Positions 3,203 to 19,562 of a stretch of 20,955 nucleotides of DNA are shown in pieces (the first letter of the stretch is position 1; every line of letters starts with the position of its first letter). Position numbers and translations under genes: made by a program. Location of the stretch: assembly GCA_021850345.1 (NCBI GenBank), contig JAJZMN010000082.1, forward strand, positions 1 to 20,955, written 5' to 3'. This stretch comes from Actinomycetes bacterium (GTDB lineage: Bacteria; Actinomycetota; Acidimicrobiia; Acidimicrobiales; RAAP-2). The notes under the pieces are model-generated. The model made no database searches. It had not been told where the DNA came from and saw nothing but the letters and a program-made list of their open reading frames with translations.

Positions 3203-5158
3203 TCACTGCGGCCCGTCCCGCGTCGCCCCGGTCAACACCGGCGCCTCGGCACCCTGACGCCCGGAATGCTGCTCCCCGGGCCGAAAGAACTCTTCGGGTC
3301 CGCCGTCGTCGCCGCCCCTGCTGCGGTTCCAGGCACGCCACACCAACCGGTGCACCGGGACGTACCGGGGCACGTCCCGCAGCCCGGGGATGAACGGCAC
3401 CGCAAGGAGGAGGATCGTCGCCACACCGGTCATGTACACGGCGATGAGGTCGACGTTCGCCGATGTCCGGAAGCCGGGGATCTGGTACCACAAGTCGTAG
3501 AGCCAGAGCCACGGCTGGCCCGGGTAGCTTCCGGTCTCGTTCATGACGCCCCACTGTGTCCCGAGCAGATGGAGCTTCTGGCCAACGGCGCCGAAGTAGC
3601 TGCCGTCCTCGAGGAACAAGAGGGGCTTCGTGAAGTTGGTGCCGTAGAACTGGTGCTGCGCGAGCAAGGCTGCGTCGAGCGCGCCGGAGCGCGCCATTGT
3701 GAGCTCCTTTACCATGAGCACCGGCACGGGGCCGTCGGCCGCGCTCGGCACCCTCGGCACGCCGTCGCTGAAGGTGACGTGCGGGACGATCTTGAGGTAG
3801 GCGGTCGCCCAGGCCATTTGCTGCGCTTTCGTCGCGGACTCGTAGCGGCGCACCGCCCGGCCGAGCGCTGGATCACCCGACGCACGGGTGTGGAGCGGCG
3901 CGAGCACGAATGTCCTTGCGGAGTTGACCGGCTGGCGGACACCGGCGATCTGCTGCCAGGACACCACGATCTTCTGGACCATGCCCGAACCAGGGGGTGT
4001 GCCGTTGTTGTTGTAGGGCGGCCCGTACGTCGCGGTCTCGCTCGTGTAGGCCAGCTCCGCGGCAGCGGTGGCCATGAAATCCCCGGGTGTGGCATGCGCC
4101 CAGCTCTGGACCGTCACGGAAGGCACGTTGGGTGAGGAGAGCACCGACGCCAGGACGACCACGAGCACGAGCACGACCGCGCCGGCGATCGTCGCCTCCT
4201 TCAAGATGTCGTACCGCCTCGTCGGGCCGCGCCAGTCCGCCGCGTCGGCGGACGCCACTGCTCTGCGCACAGTGCGGCCGCGTGGCGCGCGCACGGGAAG
4301 CGGATGGCTCACGCCGCGCACCCGCACCAGCAGGATGTGCGCGCCCACGATGGCCACGAGCACGAGCGGGACCAGCACGATGTGCCACATGAGCATCTGC
4401 CCGAAGTTCATCGGGTTGAAGAAGGAGCCCACCCCTACGGCATTGAACGCGTCCTTGCCGCTGGTCGAGATCCACTGGGAGTCGAAGTTCTGCTGGGACA
4501 CGTACCCGGTGAACGCCTCGATGATCGATGCGAGGAACGCCACCACGCCGCTTACCCACGTCAACCACCGGCGGCCTCGCCATGCCGCCATCCAGAATTT
4601 CCCCCACAGGTGGATCACCATGAAGGCCATGAACATCTCCACGCTCCAAAGATGGAGACTGTTGAAGAAGTGGCCGACCGGGTTGTAGCGCCACCAGTCC
4701 GGTCCTCCGAGCGCCAGCGCGGCGCCGGAGACAATCGCCACGCCGAGGGCGGAGAGGGTCGCGACGCCGAACACGTAGATCCACGAACGCACGTACGCGG
4801 GCTGCCTGTCGGGCAGCAGCTTGCCCGGCGGAAGCAGGCGGAGGCCGAGACGACGCACCCGGGCGGTCCACATGGTCGGGTCCGCGTCCCCGTCTTGCGC
4901 CATCGGCGCATCCCCGCCGCCGTGATACGCGGCGAGGGTCGCCGGCCGCGCGTCGCCGCCATCGGACCCTTCCACTGCACCGGTCTCCGCCTCCCGATGG
5001 TGCCGGCCGAGCGGGAACGGCAGCAGGAGGGCGCCGCCGAAGATCACGAGCATCACGAGGATCAGCACGAGGTTGGCGATCGACACCGTGAAGATGTTCC
5101 AGTGCACGTATGACCCCGGCGAGCTCATGTCGACGGCGAATTGCACTGCACCAGCCAT
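3203..5158 (-). CDS. Fused b-type cytochrome: cytochrome b/b6 N-domain with large extracytoplasmic domain
   Basis: Membrane di-haem cytochrome b of the bc/b6f superfamily, probably a quinone-linked electron carrier. The 651-residue protein has an extra N-terminal helix (about 22-48). The four-helix haem bundle follows, with paired ligands His169/His183 (spacing 14) and His259/His274 (spacing 15, the b6-like spacing). A fifth helix (about 322-340) leads into a soluble region of some 225 residues (341-568) and then one last helix (569-593). The quinol-site PEWY motif of classical C-terminal domains is not visible; a loosely similar DLWYQIPGF stretch lies just before the final helix. ATG 5158 is preferred over GTG 5179 because GAGGAGG precedes it. 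No Rieske protein or cytochrome c gene is in the window. A DevR-like box lies about 100 bp upstream. Confidence 0.85.
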   Translation of the reverse strand: MAGAVQFAVDMSSPGSYVHWNIFTVSIANLVLILVMLVIFGGALLLPFPLGRHHREAETGAVEGSDGGDARPATLAAYHGGGDAPMAQDGDADPTMWTARVRRLGLRLLPPGKLLPDRQPAYVRSWIYVFGVATLSALGVAIVSGAALALGGPDWWRYNPVGHFFNSLHLWSVEMFMAFMVIHLWGKFWMAAWRGRRWLTWVSGVVAFLASIIEAFTGYVSQQNFDSQWISTSGKDAFNAVGVGSFFNPMNFGQMLMWHIVLVPLVLVAIVGAHILLVRVRGVSHPLPVRAPRGRTVRRAVASADAADWRGPTRRYDILKEATIAGAVVLVLVVVLASVLSSPNVPSVTVQSWAHATPGDFMATAAAELAYTSETATYGPPYNNNGTPPGSGMVQKIVVSWQQIAGVRQPVNSARTFVLAPLHTRASGDPALGRAVRRYESATKAQQMAWATAYLKIVPHVTFSDGVPRVPSAADGPVPVLMVKELTMARSGALDAALLAQHQFYGTNFTKPLLFLEDGSYFGAVGQKLHLLGTQWGVMNETGSYPGQPWLWLYDLWYQIPGFRTSANVDLIAVYMTGVATILLLAVPFIPGLRDVPRYVPVHRLVWRAWNRSRGGDDGGPEEFFRPGEQHSGRQGAEAPVLTGATRDGPQ

Positions 5159-5248
5159 TTGGGGCCCCTCCTCGGTCACGGTCCGGCGGCACCGGACAGC
5201 CTGGCGTTCCTGGTTGCCTGACAGCGTGAAGATGCGGCGTGGAAGGGG

Positions 5249-5268
5249 GTAGGGCCGTTGGTCCCTAC
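5249..5268 (-). promoter_or_regulatory. DevR/DosR-like box upstream of the cytochrome b gene
   Basis: On the minus strand the 14-bp core reads GGGACCAACGGCCC. It is extended to a 20-bp site with perfect outer arms GTAGGG and CCCTAC. This fits the mycobacterial DosR form GGGAC-N4-GNCCC. It is centred about 100 bp upstream of the cytochrome b start and points toward it. The window also encodes a regulator with a conserved DosR recognition helix. Function is inferred. Confidence 0.6.
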
Positions 5269-6079: not shown

Positions 6080-8467
6080 TCACGCGACTGCCGGGAGCCC
6101 ATCGGTCCCGGCGTTCGCTTCGTCGAGATGCTTGCCGTCGTCGGCGCCCGGCACCGCGTCGTGCAACGCCGCGCCGAGCACGTCGGCGACGCTCGCCGCG
6201 AGGTGGAAGGTCATCTGGGCACGGACCTCCTCGGGCACGTCCTCCAGGTCGGGCCCGTTCCGCACGGGCAGGACGATTTCAGTGAGCCCGGCCCGGTGGG
6301 CGGCGAGCACTTTCTGCTTCACGCCGCCGATCGGCAGGACACGGCCTTGGAGGGTCACCTCGCCGGTCATACCCAGCACGGGGCGAACCACCACACCCCT
6401 GAGCAGGCTCACGAGCGCGGTGGTCATGGTGACCCCCGCCGACGGCCCGTCCTTGGGAACCGCGCCGGCGGGCACGTGGAGGTGGAAGCGCCTCCCGGCG
6501 AACGCGCTCGGCTCGATTCCCAGGTCGTGCGCGTGCGAGCGCACATAGGAAAGCGCGATCTCCGCCGACTCCTTCATCACGTCGCCCAGCTGCCCGGTGA
6601 GCGTGAGCCCCTCGGGGCCTTCCGAGACGGACGCCTCGACGTAGAGCACATCCCCGCCCGCACCGGTGACTGCGAGCCCGGTCGCGACGCCTGGCACACC
6701 GGCGCGGTCCGCCGTCTCGAAGAAGAAGCGCGGCCGGCCGAGCCATGCGCGCACGTCGGCGGCGTCGACGACGACGGGCGGCTGAGCCTTGCCGGACGCC
6801 AAGGCGGTCGCAACCTTGCGCGCAAGCCGCCCGAGCTCTCGCTCGAGCGAGCGGACGCCGGCCTCTCGCGTGTAGTCCGAGACCACCGCGCGCAGCGCGT
6901 CGTCGGTCACCTGGAGCTCATCGTCGCGCAGTGCCGCTCGCGACACCTGGCGCAAGAGCAGATGGTGGCGGGCGATCGCGACCTTCTCTGCCTCCGTGTA
7001 CCCGTCGAGCCGGATGACCTCCATCCGGTCGAGGAGCGGCGGCGGCACCGTGTCCACCACGTTGGCGGTGGCGATGAACAGGACCTTCGAGAGGTCGAGC
7101 TCCACCTCGAGATAGTGGTCCCTGAAGGTGTGGTTCTGCGCAGGGTCGAGCACCTCGAGCAAAGCCGAGGCTGGGTCACCTCGGAAGTCGGCACCGATCT
7201 TGTCGACCTCGTCGAGCAAGAGGACGGGGTTCATCGTCGCCGCCTCTCGAAGCGCGCGGACAAGGCGACCTGGCTGCGCTCCCACGTAGGTGCGCCGGTG
7301 ACCGCGGATCTCGGCCTCGTCACGCACGCCGCCGAGGGCGACCCGCACGAACTTGCGGCCGAGCGCGCGCGCCACCGACTCGCCGAGCGAGGTCTTTCCC
7401 ACTCCCGGGGGTCCGACCAACGCAAGGATGGCGCCGGCGCCGCGTCCCTCCACGGGGACGAGGCCGCGCTCGATCTGGAGCTTGCGCACCGCGAGGTGCT
7501 CCAGGATCCGCTCCTTCACGTCCACGAGCCCGTCGTGGTCCTGATCGAGGATCTCGGCAGCCGCCGAGACATCCAGGCGGTCCTCCGACTCGACACCCCA
7601 GGGCAGCTCGAGCACGGTGTCGAGCCAGGTCCTGATCCAGCCGCTCTCGGGGTTCTGCTCGCTCGTGCGCTCGAGCCGGTCGATGTCCCGCTCGACCGCT
7701 GCACGCACCTTCTCCGGCAGATTGCGGGACTCCACCTTGGCGCGGTAGTCGTCTGGGTCCTCGTCACCCTCCCGGCCGCTCAGCTCGCCGAGCTCCTTCC
7801 TGATCGCCTCGAGCTGCCGGCGCAAGAGGAACTCGCGCTGGGTGCGCTCCATCCCCTCTTCGACGTCGCTCTTGATCCGTTCGCGCAGCGCGAGGTCCGC
7901 AAGGGTGTCACGGGCCCAGCCGAGCACGAGGCGCAGCCGCTCCTCCACGTCGAGGGTCTCGAGCACCTCCACCTTCTGGGCCAGGGTGAGGTCGGGCGAG
8001 TATCCCGCCACGTCGGCCAGCCGGCTCGGGTCGGTGATCTCGCGCAGCTGCGCCGCGACGCGGCGTTCGCCCCTCTCGATGAGGATGTTCTCGACGACGG
8101 CGCGGTATTCCCGAGCGAGCTCGGCCGCCGCCGGGCCGCCGGGCTCCTCGTCCACGAGCTCGGCCTCGACCCAGAGAGCCTCACCGGTGCCGGGCACCCC
8201 GGTGCCGATGTGCGCCCGGCGATCGCCGTGCACGACGATCGCCGTGAGCCCACCCGGGAGCTCCGCACGCTCGGTGATCTCCGAGACCACGCCGACCGAC
8301 GCGTAGCGGCCCTCGATGTGAGGAACGAGGAGGAGCCGGCCGCCCGCGGAGGCGGCGGCGTCGGCAGCTGCCACTGCCTCGCTCGATTCGAGCGCCATCG
8401 TGAAGGCCATGCCGGGCAGCATCACGCCTGACTTGAGAGGGAGAAGGGGAAGGGTCAACCGTTCCAA
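6080..8467 (-). CDS. lon: ATP-dependent Lon protease
   Basis: Soluble AAA+ serine protease that degrades misfolded and regulatory proteins. The 795-residue protein has an N-terminal substrate domain (about 1-200), a coiled linker and the AAA+ module with Walker A GPPGVGKT (352-359) and Walker B LLLDE (416-420). The C-terminal protease domain has catalytic Ser676 in [10 protein letters not shown] and Lys719 in [14 protein letters not shown]. Length and order match bacterial LonA. The best start is TTG 8467, with GGAG about 10 bases upstream, giving [11 protein letters not shown] as in other Lon N termini. It is divergent from the MhuD-like gene across 137 bp. DUF2630 follows closely. No HspR/HAIR-type heat-shock operator was recognised in the upstream gap. 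Confidence 0.96.
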
Positions 8468-11396: not shown

Positions 11397-11996
11397 TCAC
11401 GCCGCCTTGGCGGCCTGCTCCGACAGCGACTTCGGGAACTCAACGCTTAGCGGCGTCCGGCGGATGTGCCAGAGGCCCATGCCGGTCAGCACCAGCATGA
11501 GGGCCGCTGCGCTGAATGCCGCCAGCGCCCCGTCGAAGGCCAGCTGCCCGAAGATCGAGAAGCCGTACGCCTCGAGCAACATCGCCCGGAGCGTCGTGCC
11601 CTGGAATACCGTTTGCACCTCACCAGCGAGTGACGCTGTGGTGGGGTTGGCGCGCGAGGCGCTGCTCACCTTGGCATAGACACCACCGTAGGGCATCTGA
11701 GACAGGTGGATACGGATGAAGTGTGTCGCGTAGATCTGCGCCTGCTGTCCCGTCGTCACCATCTTCCCGGCATACGGCGACATGTAGGGAACCATTGTCG
11801 TGGTGACCTCATGGCCTGTGGGGTGCGCAAGCTGAGCCTTGGTCGGGAAGTACACCTGCTGAAGGGCCAGCTGGTTGTGCACCTGGTCGTTGGCGAAGCT
11901 GTTGCCCCACAAGAGAAGCGCGCCCGCCGCGATGAGGACCACAGTGAGCACCGCTCCGAGTGCCGTGAGGATCAGGTCGAACGTCTTGCGTTTCAT
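11397..11996 (-). CDS. Membrane protein with two helices and an extracytoplasmic domain, unknown family
   Basis: I do not recognise this 199-residue protein. It begins MKRKTFDLILTALGAVLTVV, with a first hydrophobic helix at about 8-30. An extracytoplasmic region of about 125 residues follows, containing NQLALQQVYFPTKAQL, MVPYMSPYAGKMVTTGQQAQIYA and HFIRIHL. A second helix lies at about 150-175, and a short basic tail is in the cytoplasm. There are no cysteines and no CXXCH haem motif. The ATG at 11996 has TGGAG about 9 bases upstream. It is transcribed alone, converging on the antiporter. A DevR-type box about 120 bp upstream points toward it, so a role under low oxygen or redox stress is possible, but that rests on the site alone. 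Confidence 0.8.
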   Translation of the reverse strand: MKRKTFDLILTALGAVLTVVLIAAGALLLWGNSFANDQVHNQLALQQVYFPTKAQLAHPTGHEVTTTMVPYMSPYAGKMVTTGQQAQIYATHFIRIHLSQMPYGGVYAKVSSASRANPTTASLAGEVQTVFQGTTLRAMLLEAYGFSIFGQLAFDGALAAFSAAALMLVLTGMGLWHIRRTPLSVEFPKSLSEQAAKAA

Positions 11997-12079: not shown

Positions 12080-12096
12080 GCCCTCCATGGGAGGGC
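12080..12096 (-). terminator. Possible terminator hairpin after the sigma factor gene
   Basis: GCCCTCC-ATG-GGAGGGC is a perfect 7-bp stem with a 3-base loop, about 55 bp past the sigma factor stop. It lies downstream of the DevR-like box, on the side of the membrane-protein gene. It could therefore also lie in that gene's leader. Confidence 0.35.
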
Positions 12097-12114
12097 CGGA
12101 GGTCCCAGCACGTG

Positions 12115-12128
12115 AGGACGAAAGTCCC
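12115..12128 (-). promoter_or_regulatory. DevR/DosR-like box upstream of the two-helix membrane protein gene
   Basis: On the minus strand the site reads GGGACTTTCGTCCT. It matches the mycobacterial DosR form GGGACTTNNGNCCC at all but the final fixed position. It lies in the 155-bp gap between the sigma factor stop and the membrane protein start, about 120 bp upstream of the latter and pointing toward it. Confidence 0.6.
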
Positions 12129-12151: not shown

Positions 12152-13093
12152 TCAGGACGCCCAGGAGACGCGCTCGAGCCGGTGGCGCAACGTCGCGAGC
12201 GCGCGCATCTCGATCTGGCGCACGCGCTCGGGTGAGATGGACAGCGCTGCACCCACATCCGCCGCGCTACGGGGCCCGTCCGACGACCCGATGCCGTAAC
12301 GGAGCCGGATGACGGTCGCGGCCGACGCCGACAGGTGGCCCAGCAGCCTCTCGACCTCGCGGGGAAGCACGGCGGTGACCGCGCTGTCGCCGACGTCCAC
12401 CGAGGGGTCCGCAACGAGCTCGCCGAGCTCGTTGCCGTCTTCGTCGATCGGTGCGGACATCGAGACGACCGGCGCCGAAGCTCGCCGGATCGCGACCACG
12501 TCCGCCATGCGGATGCCGGTCTCTTCGGCGAGCTCCTGCGCGCCGGGTGAGTGGCCGAGCGTGTGCTCGAGCTGATCGGCGGTGTCCGACAGTGCGCGCG
12601 CCTGGTCGCGCCGATGGCGGGGCAGCCGCACGGGCGACGAGAAGTCCCCGACCGCCTGCGCGACCCCTTTGCGGATCCACCACGTCGCGTAGGTGGAGAA
12701 CTTGTAGCCGCGGCGCCAGTCGAAGCGCTCGATCGCGTGCAGGAGCCCGATGTTCCCCTCCTGGACCAGGTCCGAGAAGTCCACCCCCCGGTGCTGGTAG
12801 CGCTTGGCGATGGAGACGACGAGCCGGAGGTTGGACCTGGTGAAGTCCTGGCGGGCCCGACGACCCACCGCGACCGATTCTTCAAGCGCTTGGCGCTGTC
12901 GCCGGCTCAGGCGGCGTCTGGCCTGCAGCTCCCTCGCGGCACGCTCGCCCTCCTCGATCATCTGGGCGAGTCGGACTTCCTCGGCGCGCGAGAGAATGGC
13001 GTGCCAGCCGAGCTCGTCGAGGTACAGGCGCATGAGGTCGAGGTCGCGCTGGCGAGGCTGCTCACCGGCACCGCCCCGGTCGTGCTCGGACAT
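12152..13093 (-). CDS. Group-2 RNA polymerase sigma-70 factor (SigB/Hrd-like)
   Basis: Directs RNA polymerase to promoters, most likely a non-essential stress or stationary-phase sigma factor. The 313-residue protein lacks the long region 1.1 of a housekeeping SigA. Region 1.2 is at about 18-50. Region 2 holds SNLRLVVSIAKRYQHRG, DLVQEGNIGLLHAIERFDW and KFSTYATWWIRKGVAQAV (about 87-148). Region 3 is at 165-225, and region 4 has RLRYGIG and the helix-turn-helix SISPERVRQIEMRALATL (285-302). The ATG at 13093 is preceded by GGAGG. It is divergent from ftsH across 212 bp that hold four DevR-like boxes, so it is probably hypoxia- or redox-responsive (inference). No anti-sigma gene is adjacent. Confidence 0.93.
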   Translation of the reverse strand: MSEHDRGGAGEQPRQRDLDLMRLYLDELGWHAILSRAEEVRLAQMIEEGERAARELQARRRLSRRQRQALEESVAVGRRARQDFTRSNLRLVVSIAKRYQHRGVDFSDLVQEGNIGLLHAIERFDWRRGYKFSTYATWWIRKGVAQAVGDFSSPVRLPRHRRDQARALSDTADQLEHTLGHSPGAQELAEETGIRMADVVAIRRASAPVVSMSAPIDEDGNELGELVADPSVDVGDSAVTAVLPREVERLLGHLSASAATVIRLRYGIGSSDGPRSAADVGAALSISPERVRQIEMRALATLRHRLERVSWAS

Positions 13094-13171
13094 CGCCGTC
13101 CTCCGTTCCCCGGCATGACACCACTGCCGGCAGTACCTCCCACAAGTAACCCCGCTGTCGTGCAGCGGCTA

Positions 13172-13185
13172 GGGGCCGAAGTCCC
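13172..13185 (-). promoter_or_regulatory. DevR/DosR-like box nearest the sigma factor gene
   Basis: On the minus strand the site reads GGGACTTCGGCCCC, matching every fixed position of the mycobacterial DosR form GGGACTTNNGNCCC. It lies 79 bp upstream of the sigma factor start and points toward it. It is 29 bp centre to centre from the first of the three tandem boxes. Confidence 0.7.
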
Positions 13186-13194
13186 CTTCCGGGG

Positions 13195-13257
13195 TTGCAC
13201 GGGACCTTCGACCCGTTGCACGGGACCTTCGACCCGTCGCACGGGACCTTCGACCCT
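13195..13257 (+). promoter_or_regulatory. Three tandem 21-bp repeats, each with a DevR/DosR-like box
   Basis: Units start at 13195, 13216 and 13237. The first two are identical and the third differs at two positions. Each contains GGGACCTTCGACCC, at 13201-13214, 13222-13235 and 13243-13256. The 21-bp period is two helical turns, which puts all three boxes on the same DNA face, as expected for cooperative binding. The last box ends 49 bp before the ftsH start codon. A link to DevR is inferred from the motif and from the conserved recognition helix of the DevR encoded nearby. Confidence 0.75.
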
Positions 13258-13305
13258 CCCGACGTGCCCTCCGGCGAGGGACGCTTGTGAGTGGAGGAAA
13301 GAGAA

Positions 13306-15279
13306 GTGACCGTCACCTTTACCGTCGCCAACGAGCGTCCGCTGCCCAACACTCGCGCACGAAGACGTGCACCGTTCACTTCGACGCTCTTCGCGTTGGT
13401 GATGGGCGCGTCGGCGACGGTCGCCGTTGCGGGCCTCCCCGCGGTGGCCGGTGCCTCCGGTACGCCGACCGCGGGTCCGGCTGCGGGTTCCGTCGCGACG
13501 CTTCCGCTGAGCCGGCTTCTCTCGCTCGCGCAGCACGGCGACGTGCGCTCCGCAGTCCTGGACACAGGGACCGACACCGTGACCGGCGCGTTCGCGACTG
13601 GTGATGCCGTGCGCCACTACCAGTCCGTCTACCCCGCGGGATACGGGGTGCGCCTCGCAGAGCAGCTCATCGGCGATCACGTGACGCTGTCTGCAGCCCC
13701 TGGCGTCGCGTCGTCGTCCGGAGTCGGGATTGCCACGGTCGGCATGGTGCTCGTCGGGCTCGTGGCGATCCTCCTCCTTGCGACCCGCCGTCGCCGCGGC
13801 GCAGGCAAGGGCGCGGGAAGGGTCGGCGGCTCACAGTCCGCGGCCAACCCGGCAGGGTTCGCAAAGGGCCATGGAGAGCAGGTCGAAGTGCCTCCGACGC
13901 GCTTCAGCGACGTTGCGGGGCTCGACGAGGCTGTCGAGTCGCTCGCCGAGCTCGTCGACTACCTGCGTGATCCGGACAAGTACCAGGCCGCCGGCGCGGA
14001 CCTCCCTCGCGGCTTCCTGCTCGTCGGGCCGCCCGGCACGGGCAAGACGCTGCTCGCCCGGGCGGTCGCAGGCGAAGCGGGGGTGCCGTTCTTCGCGATC
14101 GGGGCCTCCGAATTCGTCGAGAGCTACGTCGGAGTCGGCGCCGCGCGGGTGCGGGCGCTGTTCGACCGGGCTCGGGGTGCAGGCTCGGCGATCGTCTTCA
14201 TCGACGAGCTCGACGCGATCGGCAGGTCTCGCAGCAGCCACTCGGTGCCCGGCAACGAAGAACGGGAGAGCACGCTCAACCAGCTGCTCGTCGAGATGGA
14301 CGGCTTCTCCACGTCGGCGTCGGTCATCGTGCTCGCCGCCACGAACCGCCCGGACATCCTCGACCACGCGCTGCTCCGTCCTGGACGCTTCGACCGGCAG
14401 ATCGCGGTGCCGACCCCCGACCGGCACGGAAGGGTGCACATCCTGGACCTCTACTTCCACCGCCGCACCGTCGCGCCGGACGTGGACCCCGACGTGCTCA
14501 GCCGGAGGACGGCGGGCTTCAGCGGCGCGGACCTTGCCAACCTGGTGAACACTGCGGCACTGCTCGCCGTGCGTGCGGGAAAGGCCGCCATCACGAGCAG
14601 CGAGCTCGACGAGGCGCTCGCGACCGTCGCCCTGGGTCCCGCCCGCAAGTCGGCGGTGGTGGCGGCAGAAGACCGCCGGATCACGGCTTGGCACGAGGCG
14701 GGCCACGCGCTCGTCGGGCTGTGGCTGGAGCATGCGGCGGACCCGATCTCGGTCTCGATCGTCCCCCGCGGGCAGGCGGGCGGCGTGACGTGGTTCCCCG
14801 GACACGACGACATGTTCCTCACGCGGCGCCAGGCGACCGCTCAGCTCGCCGTCGCCATGGCTGGGCGTGCCGCAGAGGAGCTCCTCCTCGGCGACGACTT
14901 CACCCAGGGCGCGGCGCAGGACTTCCGAGCCGCCACGGACCTCGCACGCAGGATGGTGACCGAGTACGGCATGGGGTCCATGGGGCCGGGCTTCGTCCTT
15001 CCCGAAGAGATGCACATCGGCGTCCTGGCCGAGCGCGTGCACGCATCGGTCCAAGCGCTCCTCGAAGAGGCGCTCGACTGCGCGCGCCGCCTCCTCGGCC
15101 CTTCACGCGAGATCCTCGAGCGTGTGGCGGGCCGGCTCGTCGAAGACGAGACGCTCGACAGCGCGACGCTGCTGGAGCTCGCTGGCAGGATCCCCCCCGC
15201 CGGCACCTATCCCCACAGGGCGCTTCGAGCCGAGCCCGCCCGACCACCTGACGGCCCCGCGGTCGCCGGTGCCGCCTGA
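13306..15279 (+). CDS. ftsH: ATP-dependent zinc metalloprotease FtsH
   Basis: Membrane-anchored AAA+ protease that extracts and degrades membrane and regulatory proteins. The 657-residue product has a first helix (about 26-50), an extracytoplasmic stretch (to about 137) and a second helix (about 140-160). The AAA module has Walker A GPPGTGKT (241-248), Walker [12 protein letters not shown] and the second region of homology ([13 protein letters not shown]). The zinc site is HEAGH (463-467), with Asp539 the likely third ligand. The pore loop reads SYVGVG where most FtsH proteins have FVG. GTG 13306 is chosen because GGAGG lies 8 bases upstream; GTG 13291 has no such site. Three DevR-like boxes precede it. 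It heads a plus-strand run with the APH/AAA kinase and devR. Confidence 0.95.
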
Positions 15280-15319: not shown

Positions 15320-16768
15320 ATGCATGCCGACGCGCTCGAGACGCACATGTCGGTGCTGTTCTTCTACGGCGACAACGTGGTCAAGGTCCGCAAACCTGTG
15401 AGCTACGGCTTCGCCGACTTCAGCGACCCCGAGCAGCGGCGGGCGGACTGCTGGCGCGAGGTGGACTTGAACCGGCGCCTGTCCCCCGACGTGTACGTCG
15501 GAACGGCGACGGTGTTCGTGAACGGGCACACTGCCGAGCACGCCGTCGTCATGCGCCGGCTGCCCGCCACACGCAACCTCGCGTCGATGGTCCAAGCGGG
15601 CGAGAACGTCGACGCGGAGCTCGAGTCGGTCGCCCGGGTGCTCGCGAGGTTCCACGAGCACGCCCCACGGTCCGCTGCCATCTCCGCGTCGGCGACGGCG
15701 GACGCGCTCTGGCAACGTTGGCAGGCAACCGAAGAGGAGCTCGGCCGCTTCATCGGTCCCCACATCGACATCGGCGACTACCGCCGGCTCGCCGCGCTTG
15801 CCCAACGTTTCTTGAGAGGGTGGGGCCCGCTGCTCGACAGCCGGATCGCTACGGGCGCGGTCTGCGACGGCCACGGCGACCTGCAGGCTGCCGACATCTT
15901 CTGCATGCCGGACGGGCCGAGGCTGCTCGACTGTCTGGAATTCGACGATCAGCTGCGCCACGGTGACGTGCTCGCCGACGCCGCCTTTCTCGTCCAGGAT
16001 CTCGAACGCATGGGCGCACACCGCGAGGGGCGGCTCTTCGTCGACGCGTACCGCAGGTCATCGGGCATCGAGCAGCCCGAGACGCTCCTCCATTTCTATG
16101 TTGCGGCGCGCGCCCACGTGCGCCTCCTCGTCGAGTGCCTTCGCCTCGAGCAGGGACTCGACGCACTCGCCCACGAGCCCGCGGCGGTGCTCGCACAGGC
16201 CCTCTCCCACGTGGAGATGGCGATCCCGCGCCTCGTGCTCGTCGGCGGTCTTCCGGGGACCGGCAAGTCGACCCTCGCCTCATGGGTCGGCGAGGAGCTC
16301 ACGGCAACCGTCCTCTCGAGCGACCGGGTGCGCGCGGAGGACCCGGCGGCAGAGACCGGTCCCGTCCCGTTCGGCACTGGGCTCTACGCCTTCGAGCGAA
16401 GGCTCGACGTGTACGACGAGCTCCTTGCGCAGGCGAGGGCTCTGCTCGTCGAGGGACGATCTGTCGTGATCGACGCCACGTGGTCGAGTGCGGTCTTCCG
16501 TCAGCGCGCAGCGGAGGTCGCGCGCTCGTCGTCCTCCGGGCTCCTCGAGGTCGAGTGCCGTTGCACACAGGCAGCGAGGGCTGACCGGATCCTCGGTCGC
16601 AGCGAGGCCCGGCGACGCGAGTCGGACGCGACGCCCGAGGTGGCCGATTCGCTCGCCGCGGCAGCGGACCCCTGGCCCGGCGCCCACGTCGTGGACACTT
16701 CCGGCCCGCTCGACGAGACCCGCAAGTCCGCTCTCGACGTGCTCCGCTCCGGGGTCTCGGAGCGATGA
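15320..16768 (+). CDS. Rv2004c-like bifunctional APH-fold / P-loop kinase protein
   Basis: Resembles Mycobacterium tuberculosis Rv2004c, a DosR-regulon protein of unknown substrate. The 482-residue product has an N-terminal aminoglycoside-phosphotransferase-like domain with KVRKPVSYGFADFSDPEQR near the start. Its catalytic segment is DGHGDLQA (184-191), followed by DCLEFDDQLRHGD. A C-terminal AAA/gluconate-kinase-like domain starts with the P-loop GLPGTGKST (310-318) and contains VVIDATWSS. Phosphorylation of a small molecule is likely, but the substrate cannot be named. ATG 15320 fits the alignment. GTG 15281, just after the ftsH stop, and ATG 15347 are alternatives. Only 40 bp separate it from ftsH and 64 bp from devR, so the three genes probably form one operon. 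Confidence 0.88.
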   Translation: MHADALETHMSVLFFYGDNVVKVRKPVSYGFADFSDPEQRRADCWREVDLNRRLSPDVYVGTATVFVNGHTAEHAVVMRRLPATRNLASMVQAGENVDAELESVARVLARFHEHAPRSAAISASATADALWQRWQATEEELGRFIGPHIDIGDYRRLAALAQRFLRGWGPLLDSRIATGAVCDGHGDLQAADIFCMPDGPRLLDCLEFDDQLRHGDVLADAAFLVQDLERMGAHREGRLFVDAYRRSSGIEQPETLLHFYVAARAHVRLLVECLRLEQGLDALAHEPAAVLAQALSHVEMAIPRLVLVGGLPGTGKSTLASWVGEELTATVLSSDRVRAEDPAAETGPVPFGTGLYAFERRLDVYDELLAQARALLVEGRSVVIDATWSSAVFRQRAAEVARSSSSGLLEVECRCTQAARADRILGRSEARRRESDATPEVADSLAAAADPWPGAHVVDTSGPLDETRKSALDVLRSGVSER

Positions 16769-16832: not shown

Positions 16833-17507
16833 ATGGCTCTGCGGGTCTTCCTCGTCGACGATCACGAGGTCGTGCGCGCCGGGCTCCGCTCGTTGGTCGA
16901 GTCCGAGGAAGATCTCATCGTCGTCGGCGAAGCCGGAACCGTCCAGGACGCCCTCGTCCGGATCCCACTCGCCAAGCCGGACGTCGCGATCCTCGATGTG
17001 CGCCTCCCCGACGGGAGCGGCATCGAAGTGTGCCGGCAGATCAGGTCGGACCACCCGGAGATCGCCTGCCTGATGCTGACCTCCTATGCGGACGACGAGG
17101 CACTGCTCGCGGCGATCATGGCGGGAGCGGCCGGCTATGTCCTCAAGCAGGTGGGGGGCACCGACCTCGTCGCCGACATCCGCAAGGTTGGAGCAGGGGG
17201 CACGCTGCTCGATCCGAAGCTCACCGAGCGCGTGCTCGAACGGCTGCGTCGCGGACCGCAGGAGGACCATCGGCTCGCCTCGCTGACGGCCCAGGAACGC
17301 CGCATCCTCGACCGCATCGCCGAAGGGCGCACCAACCGTCAGATCGGCGAGGAGCTCTTTCTCGCCGAGAAGACGGTCAAGAACTACGTGTCCAACCTGC
17401 TCGCGAAGCTGGGCATGGAGCGACGCACGGAGGCGGCGGTCTTCGCAACCAAACTGCACGAGCGACAGGCGTCGCTCGACCGTCAGGAGCCGTCCGGAGG
17501 GTCGTGA
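16833..17507 (+). CDS. devR: DevR/DosR-type NarL-family response regulator
   Basis: DNA-binding regulator of the hypoxia/nitric oxide dormancy response in mycobacteria. The 224-residue protein is very similar to DosR, including VFLVDDHEVVRAGL, VAILDVRLPDGSGIE and FLAEKTVKNYVSNLLAKLGMERRTEAAVFAT. Receiver residues are Asp9, Asp10, phospho-acceptor Asp55, Thr83, Tyr102 and Lys105. The LuxR-type helix-turn-helix keeps Lys180, Lys183 and Asn184, which correspond to the DosR base-contacting Lys179, Lys182 and Asn183. Site preference should therefore be close to the DosR box, and such boxes occur in this window. The ATG at 16833 has only a weak ribosome binding site. It lies 64 bp after the kinase-like gene. 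Its 3' end overlaps an opposite-strand gene, and the DevS-like kinase is encoded 538 bp downstream. Confidence 0.95.
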   Translation: MALRVFLVDDHEVVRAGLRSLVESEEDLIVVGEAGTVQDALVRIPLAKPDVAILDVRLPDGSGIEVCRQIRSDHPEIACLMLTSYADDEALLAAIMAGAAGYVLKQVGGTDLVADIRKVGAGGTLLDPKLTERVLERLRRGPQEDHRLASLTAQERRILDRIAEGRTNRQIGEELFLAEKTVKNYVSNLLAKLGMERRTEAAVFATKLHERQASLDRQEPSGGS

Positions 17508-17866: not shown

Positions 17867-18045
17867 CGCCAGTCTCGTGTTCTCCCGACTTGCCGCCTTC
17901 GCCGACCGTTCCCGTGAGGCGGCCTCGTCACCACTCTTGGATCACGGTTGTCGAACCAACAGGGTCCTCGGTCACATGGGGCTCCCACGTCGCCGGCGGC
18001 GCGAGCCACCGGAGGCCCCGGAGCACCACGGCTAGGATCTCGGCG

Positions 18046-19188
18046 GTGCCCCACCGGCGCATCGACGATCCAGCCACGCTGCGCCGCCTCCTCGAGGCGG
18101 TCCTCCTCCTCGAGGCGGATCTCAGCCTTCCGGTGCTCCTTCGTCACTTCGTCCAGGAGGCCTGCTCGATGACCCGCGCCCGGTACGGGGCGCTGGGCGT
18201 GCTCAACGAGCAACGGACCGCTCTCGAGGAGTTCATCACGGTCGGCCTGGGAAAGGACCAGGAGCGGGCGATCGGGAAGCGGCCGACCGGGCTCGGCGTC
18301 CTCGGCCTCCTCATCGTCGACCCGAAACCGTTGCGGCTGAGGAACATCGCGGACCATCCCGACAGCGCGGGGTTCCCCCCGGGCCACCCCGAGATGCACT
18401 CCTTCCTCGGGGTCCCAGTCGGCGCTCACGACGAGGTGTACGGCAACCTCTACCTCACCGACAAGATCGGAAGCGTGGAGTTCACGAGCGAGGACGAGGC
18501 TCTCGTGACCGCCTTCGCACAGGCGGCCGGCATCGCCATCGAGAACGCGCACCTCCACGAGCGCGTCCAGCAGGTGGCGGTGCTCGAGGACCGAGACCGC
18601 ATCGCAAGGGATCTCCACGACGCGGTGATCCAGCGGCTCTTCGCGGTCGCCCTCAACCTCCAAGGCGTCGCCCGCCCACCGCTCGAAGGCGAGGCCCTCG
18701 AACGCGTGCAGCGCGCGATCAGCGACCTCGACGACACCATCCGGCAGATCCGCTCGTCCATCTTCGAGCTCTCGCAGACAGAGGCCTCGCGCCCGGGCAT
18801 CCGGGCAAGCGTGCTCGCCCTCGTCCGCGAGCTGCGGCCGGTCGTCGGCTTCGACGTCTCTGTGTCATTCGAAGGACCGGTCGACATGGCGATTCCCGAG
18901 CCGGTCACCGAGCACCTGCTCTTTACGATCCGAGAGGCGCTCACCAACGTCGGCCGGCACGCCGAGGCCTCCAGGGCGTCCGTCTTGGTTCGCGTCGACG
19001 CCAACGTGCTGTCCCTCGAGGTCGTCGACGACGGTCGGGGCATCCCGCCCGCGGGTGGTGGCCGGACCCTCGCGACCGGCCTGGGTCTCGAGAACCTCCG
19101 CAGGCGCGCGGAACGGCTGGGCGGAGAGATGGTGCTCGGCAGGCCCGACGGTGGCGGCACGTCGCTCGTCTGGCGCGTACCGATCTGA
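18046..19188 (+). CDS. devS: DevS/DosS-like haem-GAF sensor histidine kinase with one GAF domain
   Basis: Predicted partner kinase of DevR. The 380-residue protein has one GAF domain (about 25-168), a HisKA_3 dimerisation domain with phospho-acceptor His191 in RDRIARDLHDAVIQRLF, and a HATPase_c domain with REALTNVGRHAEAS, DDGRGIPP and GLGLENLRRRAE. The GAF closely matches DosS GAF-A: GLGVLGLLIVDPKPLRL, then GFPPGHPEM with His114 at the position of the DosS haem ligand His149, then LYLTDK with Tyr136 at the position of distal Tyr171. DosS and DosT have two GAF domains and about 575 residues, so this is a compact version. GTG 18046 is chosen because AGGA lies about 8 bases upstream and the conserved sequence starts soon after; the frame is open further upstream to 17890. 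Confidence 0.92.
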   Translation: MPHRRIDDPATLRRLLEAVLLLEADLSLPVLLRHFVQEACSMTRARYGALGVLNEQRTALEEFITVGLGKDQERAIGKRPTGLGVLGLLIVDPKPLRLRNIADHPDSAGFPPGHPEMHSFLGVPVGAHDEVYGNLYLTDKIGSVEFTSEDEALVTAFAQAAGIAIENAHLHERVQQVAVLEDRDRIARDLHDAVIQRLFAVALNLQGVARPPLEGEALERVQRAISDLDDTIRQIRSSIFELSQTEASRPGIRASVLALVRELRPVVGFDVSVSFEGPVDMAIPEPVTEHLLFTIREALTNVGRHAEASRASVLVRVDANVLSLEVVDDGRGIPPAGGGRTLATGLGLENLRRRAERLGGEMVLGRPDGGGTSLVWRVPI

Positions 19189-19205: not shown

Positions 19206-19219
19206 GGGCCGTTCGACCC
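19206..19219 (+). promoter_or_regulatory. DevR/DosR-like box upstream of the small basic protein gene
   Basis: GGGCCGTTCGACCC has the GGG-N8-CCC architecture and shares GGGCCGTT with the plus-strand reading of the box upstream of cytochrome b. It differs from the DosR form at two fixed positions (C for A, G for T). It lies 115 bp upstream of the 75-residue protein start. Confidence 0.45.
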
Positions 19220-19334: not shown

Positions 19335-19562
19335 ATGAAGACGGCAACGGGTCTCAGCTCCCTTCGTGCACAGCGGGAACAGCGGTCGAAGCGGGCACAG
19401 CGGGCACAGCGGGCGAAGCGTGCGAAGCGTGCGAAGCGTGCGCGACGCGCTGCGCCGTCGGTGCCGGCCCAGAGGACGGGACGGGCCGCGCTGAGCCCCT
19501 ACGTGATGGAGGACGTCGCCTTCACGCGGGAGGAGATCCGTCGGGCGCGCGAAGCCGCGTGA
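19335..19562 (+). CDS. Small basic protein with (K/Q)RA tripeptide repeats
   Basis: No family is recognised. The 75-residue product starts MKTATGLSSLRAQ, then carries about nine tripeptides of the type QRA/KRA (residues about 13-39), then a short tail ending TREEIRRAREAA. The net charge is strongly positive. Lys/Arg-Ala repeats resemble the nucleic-acid-binding tails of some actinobacterial nucleoid proteins, so DNA or RNA binding is possible (inference). Coding is supported by AAGGAG at a good distance before the ATG and by the in-frame 9-bp repeat. Its 3' end overlaps the end of the universal stress protein gene on the other strand by 41 bp. A DevR-like box lies upstream. Confidence 0.65.
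   Translation: MKTATGLSSLRAQREQRSKRAQRAQRAKRAKRAKRARRAAPSVPAQRTGRAALSPYVMEDVAFTREEIRRAREAA
19373..19444. repeat. Eight 9-bp tandem units in the small basic protein gene
   Basis: Units are variants of gcgggcaca and gcgtgcgaa, eight in a row without gaps. The period keeps the frame and encodes the (K/Q)RA repeats. Copy number could vary between strains by slippage. Confidence 0.85.

Follow-up and report, generated by a model that had tools for sequence, protein, structure and literature searches.

In M. tuberculosis, promoters controlled by DevR are described as having a proximal site that overlaps the -35 region, their sites being closely packed and neighbouring sites being filled cooperatively (PMC3029386). 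Two DevR sites have been reported at Rv3134c, three at hspX, and four in the region common to narK2 and Rv1738 (PMC7018068). In the protein, K179, K182, and N183 are reported to make base contacts, and D54 is the phospho-acceptor (PMC4082495). Here we describe a locus with similar boxes in an actinobacterial contig; the window is the whole stretch of 20,955 nucleotides that was analyzed, and its features are collected in Table 1. With a probability of about 0.8, judged from sequence, we read the region between a sigma factor gene and ftsH as a divergent promoter under DevR (DosR), an oxygen-sensing dormancy regulator, with one conserved box per side, in which the ftsH-side box has been tandemly duplicated to three in this genome.

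The intergenic region carries three exact copies of GGGACCTTCGACCC on the forward strand, in two steps of 21 bp each, and a fourth box facing the opposite way, all of them where the initial annotation had placed them. Tandem Repeats Finder reports positions 13194-13256 as a single repeat with period 21, 97% matches, and unit GTTGCACGGGACCTTCGACCC; the boxes have been copied together with their linkers, and thus the array resembles a tandem duplication rather than three separately evolved sites. The fourth box lies outside the 21-bp phase, since its centre is 29 bp from that of the nearest copy. All four boxes fit the palindromic DevR-box core GGGNC-N4-GNCCC, which occurs eight times in the window against an expectation of 1.85 (eight was reached in 0 of 100 shuffles), three of the eight matches belonging to the single tandem repeat. 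Of the other matches, one falls within the sigma gene (12853) and another right past the kinase gene, the box-like GGGCCGTTCGACCC at 19206-19219, downstream of which no forward gene was recognised. A consensus scan of both strands of 13050-13350 found no sigma-70 promoter, and the window had no Rfam match at gathering cut-offs. A 6-bp hairpin on the minus strand (13152-13168), flagged as terminator-like, lies between the sigma-side box and the predicted -10 hexamer.

Table 1. Boxes, predicted promoter elements, and genes of the window
Feature	Position	Strand	Remarks
Sigma-side DevR-type box GGGACTTCGGCCCC	13172..13185	-	Centre -42.5 from predicted sigma-gene start point; at least 7/8 core letters in 12/12 orthologous loci
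21-bp tandem repeat, 3.0 copies	13194..13256	.	Tandem Repeats Finder; absent from all 8 sigma-ftsH relatives
Extra box copy 1, distal, ~-84.5 for ftsH	13201..13214	+	Without counterpart in 8 sigma-ftsH relatives
Extra box copy 2, ~-63.5 for ftsH	13222..13235	+	Without counterpart in 8 sigma-ftsH relatives
Proximal ftsH-side box, conserved, ~-42.5	13243..13256	+	Counterpart in 8/8 sigma-ftsH relatives
-10-like GACGCT, predicted ftsH promoter	13280..13285	+	23 nt past box; NANNNT
-10-like TACTTG, predicted sigma-gene promoter (weak match)	13143..13148	-	23 nt past box, read by eye
Distal box of pair upstream of 199-aa gene	12115..12128	-	Pair step 22 bp in 11/11 loci
Proximal box of pair upstream of 199-aa gene	12093..12106	-	-10-like CACGCT at 12068-12063
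DevR-type box GGGACCAACGGCCC upstream of cytochrome b-like gene	5252..5265	-	-10-like CACGCT at 5228-5223
Cytochrome b-like gene	3203..5179	-	PF13631
199-aa protein gene	11397..11996	-	Hydrophobic N-terminus by eye; no match in family search
Sigma-70 factor gene, probably group 2	12152..13093	-	Pfam regions 1.2, 2, 3, 4
ftsH-type ATP-dependent metalloprotease gene	13306..15279	+	Pfam AAA and Peptidase_M41; GTG start and GGAGG by eye
Phosphotransferase-like/AAA_33 protein gene	15320..16768	+	PF13671; predicted start
DevR-type response regulator gene	16833..17507	+	Predicted ATG start; top solved match M. tuberculosis DevR 3c3w
DevS-type sensor kinase gene, one GAF domain	17890..19188	+	HisKA_3, HATPase_c; start uncertain

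The attribution of these boxes to DevR, already proposed in the initial annotation, is well supported by the sequence: a devR homologue is encoded downstream of ftsH, and the boxes keep a near-constant distance from a -10-like hexamer (see below). The regulator combines Response_reg and GerE domains, i.e. a NarL-type receiver and a LuxR-type DNA-binding domain. Its 118 identities in 206 positions aligned with M. tuberculosis DevR (57%) include D54, T82, K104, K179, K182, and N183. The palindrome GGGNC-N4-GNCCC by itself names no reader, and the regulator used as query at E 0.001 gave 12 to 25 matches in each of eight relatives, so other readers exist; that another NarL/LuxR-type response regulator and not the encoded DevR homologue reads the boxes is nonetheless improbable, given a match of 247 bits (E 1.2e-72) to the solved structure of DevR against 148 bits to VraR, the identity of the base-contacting residues, and the position of the boxes at the homologue's own gene cluster. 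The GAF domain of the kinase matches that of DevS (2y8h, E 7.9e-42) with the HP.M motif aligned; its His is presumably the heme ligand, and heme binding by the kinase is putative. Some hundreds of bases lie between devR and the kinase gene; ftsH, the phosphotransferase-like gene, and devR probably form one operon.

The nearest NCBIfam models are MadR for the regulator (191.3 bits against a cut-off of 300), MadS for the kinase (under its cut-off), and TIGR01241 for the FtsH-type protease (E 1.5e-172, yet 575.5 bits against 600); since all of them fall under their cut-offs, the names used here are based on matches to solved structures and Pfam. Likewise, the top model for the sigma factor is SigB (245 bits against 464), every NCBIfam match of the cytochrome b-like protein lies far under its cut-off, and the AAA_33 protein has no NCBIfam match. 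We borrow the name phosphotransferase-like for the latter from Rv2004c, a protein of the DosR regulon. Two further features lie in the neighbourhood. A Lon protease gene (6080-8467) is found near the ftsH/DevR cluster here and also in loci L001-L003; the strict box core is absent from its start. A 9/27-bp tandem repeat (19365-19442) is located between the kinase gene and a histone deacetylase-like gene.

How readily such boxes arise by chance was estimated by shuffling 13 regions, which take in the first bases of the adjoining coding sequence: a near-box (7/8 letters) appeared in 23-71% of the shuffles, and the 8/8 core, which only some conserved boxes reach, in 1-8%. Near-boxes being that frequent, the presence of a box is weak evidence, and its position is stronger. 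Downstream of 30 boxes, the start of a NANNNT hexamer lies at offset 23 in 15 cases, at 24 in the other 15, and at any other offset in at most 5. These boxes represent the promoters of ftsH (9), the 199-aa gene (11), and the cytochrome b-like gene (10), with the window counted in each; the 30 rows are related by descent, yet the three promoters are mutually non-orthologous. Of the two candidate boxes at the cytochrome b promoter in L056 and L060, the count took the gene-proximal one; each box pair of the 199-aa gene was represented by its downstream member. As the offset was first spotted by eye in some rows, 30 of 30 is not a blind count. All nine ftsH-side boxes are followed by NANNNT, at offset 23 in the window and 24 in the eight other loci. 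These offsets put the box centre at a predicted -42.5 or -43.5; the overlap of the proximal box with the -35 region is likewise deduced solely from the predicted -10 hexamer (offset 23-24, 30/30). On the sigma side, where the hexamer is weaker, 10 of 13 loci have TA at offset 23 as seen by eye, one has it at 24, and two at 25; as the hexamer of these 13 rows does not end in T, they do not enter the count of 30.

A GC content of 70%, the frequency of chance near-boxes, and the occurrence of the array in one record could suggest that the boxes are accidental GC-rich palindromes or an assembly artefact. Such an origin is very improbable in view of the 23/24 spacing in all 30 rows and of positions conserved in 12 relatives; moreover, the 63-bp array is below ordinary read length.

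Orthologous loci were collected in two ways. A search of genome contigs with the phosphotransferase-like protein gave eight loci, all from metagenome genomes labelled Actinomycetes bacterium, and three of them are syntenic across the region. A search with the sigma protein in 172 genomes of one relative's family gave 12 genomes at E <=1e-85 (loci L029-L040), six of which had already been met in the former search; L001-L003 share genomes with L034, L032, and L033, respectively, and were counted once. The divergent neighbour of the sigma gene encodes FtsH in eight loci (L029-L035 and L040), and neither FtsH nor devR was found beside it in L037. In L036, L038, and L039, devR itself is the immediate divergent neighbour of the sigma gene, no ftsH intervenes, and the sigma gene keeps its box.

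The sigma-side box is retained in all 12 loci, with 7/8 rather than 8/8 core letters in L032-L035, L037, and L038, and the proximal ftsH-side box in all eight sigma-ftsH loci, with 7/8 core letters in L031-L033 and L040. The conserved boxes also share their flanks, with the consensuses GAaGGGACTTC.G and AAgGGACgTTCGaCCCTCCC, and the proximal ftsH-side box is followed by TCCC in seven relatives and by TTCC in L040. The orthologues are not independent of each other, L032/L033 and L053/L054 being almost identical. One relative (G001) has no DevR match at E 1e-70, and its locus ends past the phosphotransferase-like gene.

The array itself is not conserved. The initial annotation had asked whether the 21-bp phase is kept in orthologous intergenic regions, and none of the eight sigma-ftsH relatives has the triple array or either of the two extra copies; this absence, named beforehand as an outcome that would speak against the proposal, leaves the conserved proximal box unaffected. 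Thus DevR-type boxes at a divergent sigma/ftsH promoter stand, while a conserved array does not. Beside the proximal box, further near-boxes (7/8 letters) occur only in L031 (three, inside a 20-bp repeat), L035 (one, 19 bp upstream of the proximal box), and L040 (two), and these, though of a kind common by chance, may include weak sites. Across the relatives, the two conserved boxes are 40 to 162 bp apart, and four of the eight harbor unrelated tandem repeats with scores of at least 40 in this region: L031 has a 20-bp unit in 6.8 copies, L034 an 8-bp unit in 3, and L030 an 11-bp unit in 3.9, and on the sigma side both L029 and L030 have a 13-bp unit in 2.2 copies. Weaker repeats (score 31-33) are present in L035 and L040. 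From the conserved boxes, variable spacing, and unrelated repeats, each promoter appears to be a conserved module of its own, with the array seemingly added locally. The sigma-protein tree is mostly unresolved, and therefore the gain of the array has no placement on it.

Two of the repeat units were compared with box sequences as candidate derivatives of a box. The alignment score of the L030 22-bp unit with the general box was reached by 61 of 2000 shuffled units, and with the other box by 1028 of 2000; for the L031 unit the figures were 108 of 2000 with its own box and 1639 of 2000 with the other. The 6.8 copies of the L031 repeat fill the DNA that separates the sigma-side box from the ftsH-side one (intergenic coordinates 107-243).

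In one alternative, DevR truly acts at the proximal and sigma-side boxes, but both extra copies form a neutral minisatellite that replication slippage produced in a repeat-prone intergenic region, free of any selected role. The linkers duplicated along with the boxes, the absence of copies 1 and 2 from all 8 sigma-ftsH relatives, the unrelated repeats of four relatives, and the variable distance between boxes all agree with it, and we regard it as a serious possibility, though one that we would not favor. Every copy, however, preserves the full box core, and the 21-bp unit is near the 22-bp phase of box pairs upstream of the 199-aa gene; a second array, described below, also speaks against neutrality.

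Orthologues of the 199-aa protein are encoded in 10 of the 12 loci L029-L040, and two upstream boxes 22 bp apart were found in all 11 loci including the window, taking the best-scoring pair with at least 6/8 core letters in each box and a step free to vary from 18 to 26. A phase of 21-22 bp is therefore ordinary here. At the cytochrome b-like gene, an upstream box with at least 7/8 letters precedes all nine orthologues found, with 8/8 letters in four; they come from 9 of the 12 genomes searched, the partial L062 and L063 (genome G006) being left out.

Strict box pairs with steps of 19-23 bp occur in 12 of the 172 family genomes, at 12 distinct places, against none for the backward control. The step is 22 bp in eight of these pairs, 21 bp in two, 19 bp in one, and 23 bp in one; a -10-like hexamer follows at 23-24 in seven of the eight 22-bp pairs and in none of the other four, both 21-bp pairs included. 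Four of the eight 22-bp pairs (L046-L049) are at the promoter position of the 199-aa gene, three of them also among the 11 loci above; in L048 the gene itself would fall past the contig end. A relaxed three-box pattern gave four matches in 3 of the 172 genomes, as did the backward control (four in three), and hence triple arrays are not enriched as a class; two of the four matches represent the single array of L042, and L070 and L071 were left out of inspection.

One of the two 21-bp pairs proved to belong to a longer array in that other family genome: L042:1501-1577 contains a separate intergenic array of four tandem copies of GGGACCAAGGACCC in ~21-bp steps, between genes whose translations, by eye, suggest an ABC transporter and a flavodoxin-like protein. 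One copy has 7/8 letters, and the last is followed by CAGGGT at offset 23 (by eye); the genome encodes two DevR homologues with 62-63% identity. Phased pairs are thus found regularly, and tandem arrays of boxes seem to have originated on at least two occasions.

In a sample of the order, pairs with gaps of 0-30 bp matched in 46 of 397 genomes, with frequent matches of the backward control as well; by hand count, 22 bp is the commonest step (six distinct arrays, any other step at most three), a modest peak. In a sample of the phylum, 16 of 396 genomes contained pairs, with a non-empty backward control, and G640 alone accounted for most of the matches. This 3.6-Mb genome has two DevR homologues and 32 forward and 32 reverse matches of the box-pair pattern, with none in the control. 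The five places listed for it, L064-L068, are palindromic pairs with 21-bp steps, in which good conservation is limited to the pair and the nearest bases; they may reflect a repeat dispersed in the genome or else a regulon of great regularity.

Returning to the reading of a divergent DevR promoter with a duplicated ftsH-side box, we suggest the following mechanism. Phosphorylated DevR, itself a product of the ftsH side, would be expected to occupy the proximal box of each side, centred ~42.5 bp upstream of the start point and overlapping the -35 region, and would draw RNA polymerase to both the sigma-factor gene and the operon that encodes DevR, creating a positive loop with a sigma-factor branch. 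In this genome, as distinct from the relatives seen, duplication of the ftsH-side box would have put copies at about -42.5, -63.5, and -84.5, leaving room for as many as two additional dimers, at 21 and 42 bp farther upstream. Their identical sequence and a step close to the 22-bp phase make it probable that the extra copies are bound by DevR in a row along one face of the DNA and that they raise occupancy of the ftsH promoter; cooperative loading of DevR on the phased boxes is plausible from their arrangement. More speculatively, slippage by ~21 bp (a box with its linker) might be a recurrent way of adding in-phase DevR sites behind a fixed proximal box, a generalization that we consider rather unlikely; if it held, it would act as a dial for the expression of dormancy genes, exemplified by three copies at ftsH and four at L042.

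Should the main reading be correct, a DevR-type switch would govern a sigma factor, a membrane protease, and the regulator's own genes in these little-known actinobacteria, and the promoter anatomy (a box at about -42.5/-43.5 and a partner 22 bp upstream) could serve for regulon prediction throughout the group. The one-box relatives and the three-box genome would constitute a natural series for the effect of extra regulator sites.

The locus differs from known cases in its pair of targets and in its tandem copies, which are identical and occur in just one of the compared loci. Among the titles and abstract openings that a literature search returned for DosR/DevR with ftsH, sigma factors, Acidimicrobi-, tandem duplication, or phasing, none treats such a promoter. 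The density of sites is not new: the initial annotation had judged the array denser than mycobacterial DosR promoters, a view that fails since M. tuberculosis promoters with three (hspX) and four (narK2-Rv1738) sites have been reported (PMC7018068).

A close parallel is the M. tuberculosis narK2-Rv1738 region, where divergent genes also share a common intergenic region with four DevR sites (PMC7018068). There the sites are ranked as primary and secondary by affinity (PMC7018068), whereas here three of them are identical tandem copies; the predicted targets also differ, being a sigma factor gene and an ftsH-devR cluster in our case. As in the autoregulated Rv3134c-devRS operon, DevR sites lie upstream of an operon encoding devR (PMC7018068), but the present cluster starts with ftsH and a phosphotransferase-like gene. 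The hspX promoter resembles the ftsH side in having three DevR sites at one promoter (PMC7018068); its P1, S, and P2 rank as primary and secondary sites, in contrast to the tandem repeat of the window. Outside mycobacteria, the DevR counterpart is OsdR (SCO0204) of Streptomyces coelicolor, with the consensus AGGGCCGATCGGCCCT (PMC5069765). The word ftsH has 0 occurrences in the main text of that paper (PMC5069765), and the OsdR regulon is not known to include a tandem triple array. The predicted OsdR sites AGGGACCTTCGGCCCC are nearly identical to the box of the window, and the predicted targets include the sigma factor gene SCO0038 (PMC5069765), just as a sigma factor gene is a predicted target here.
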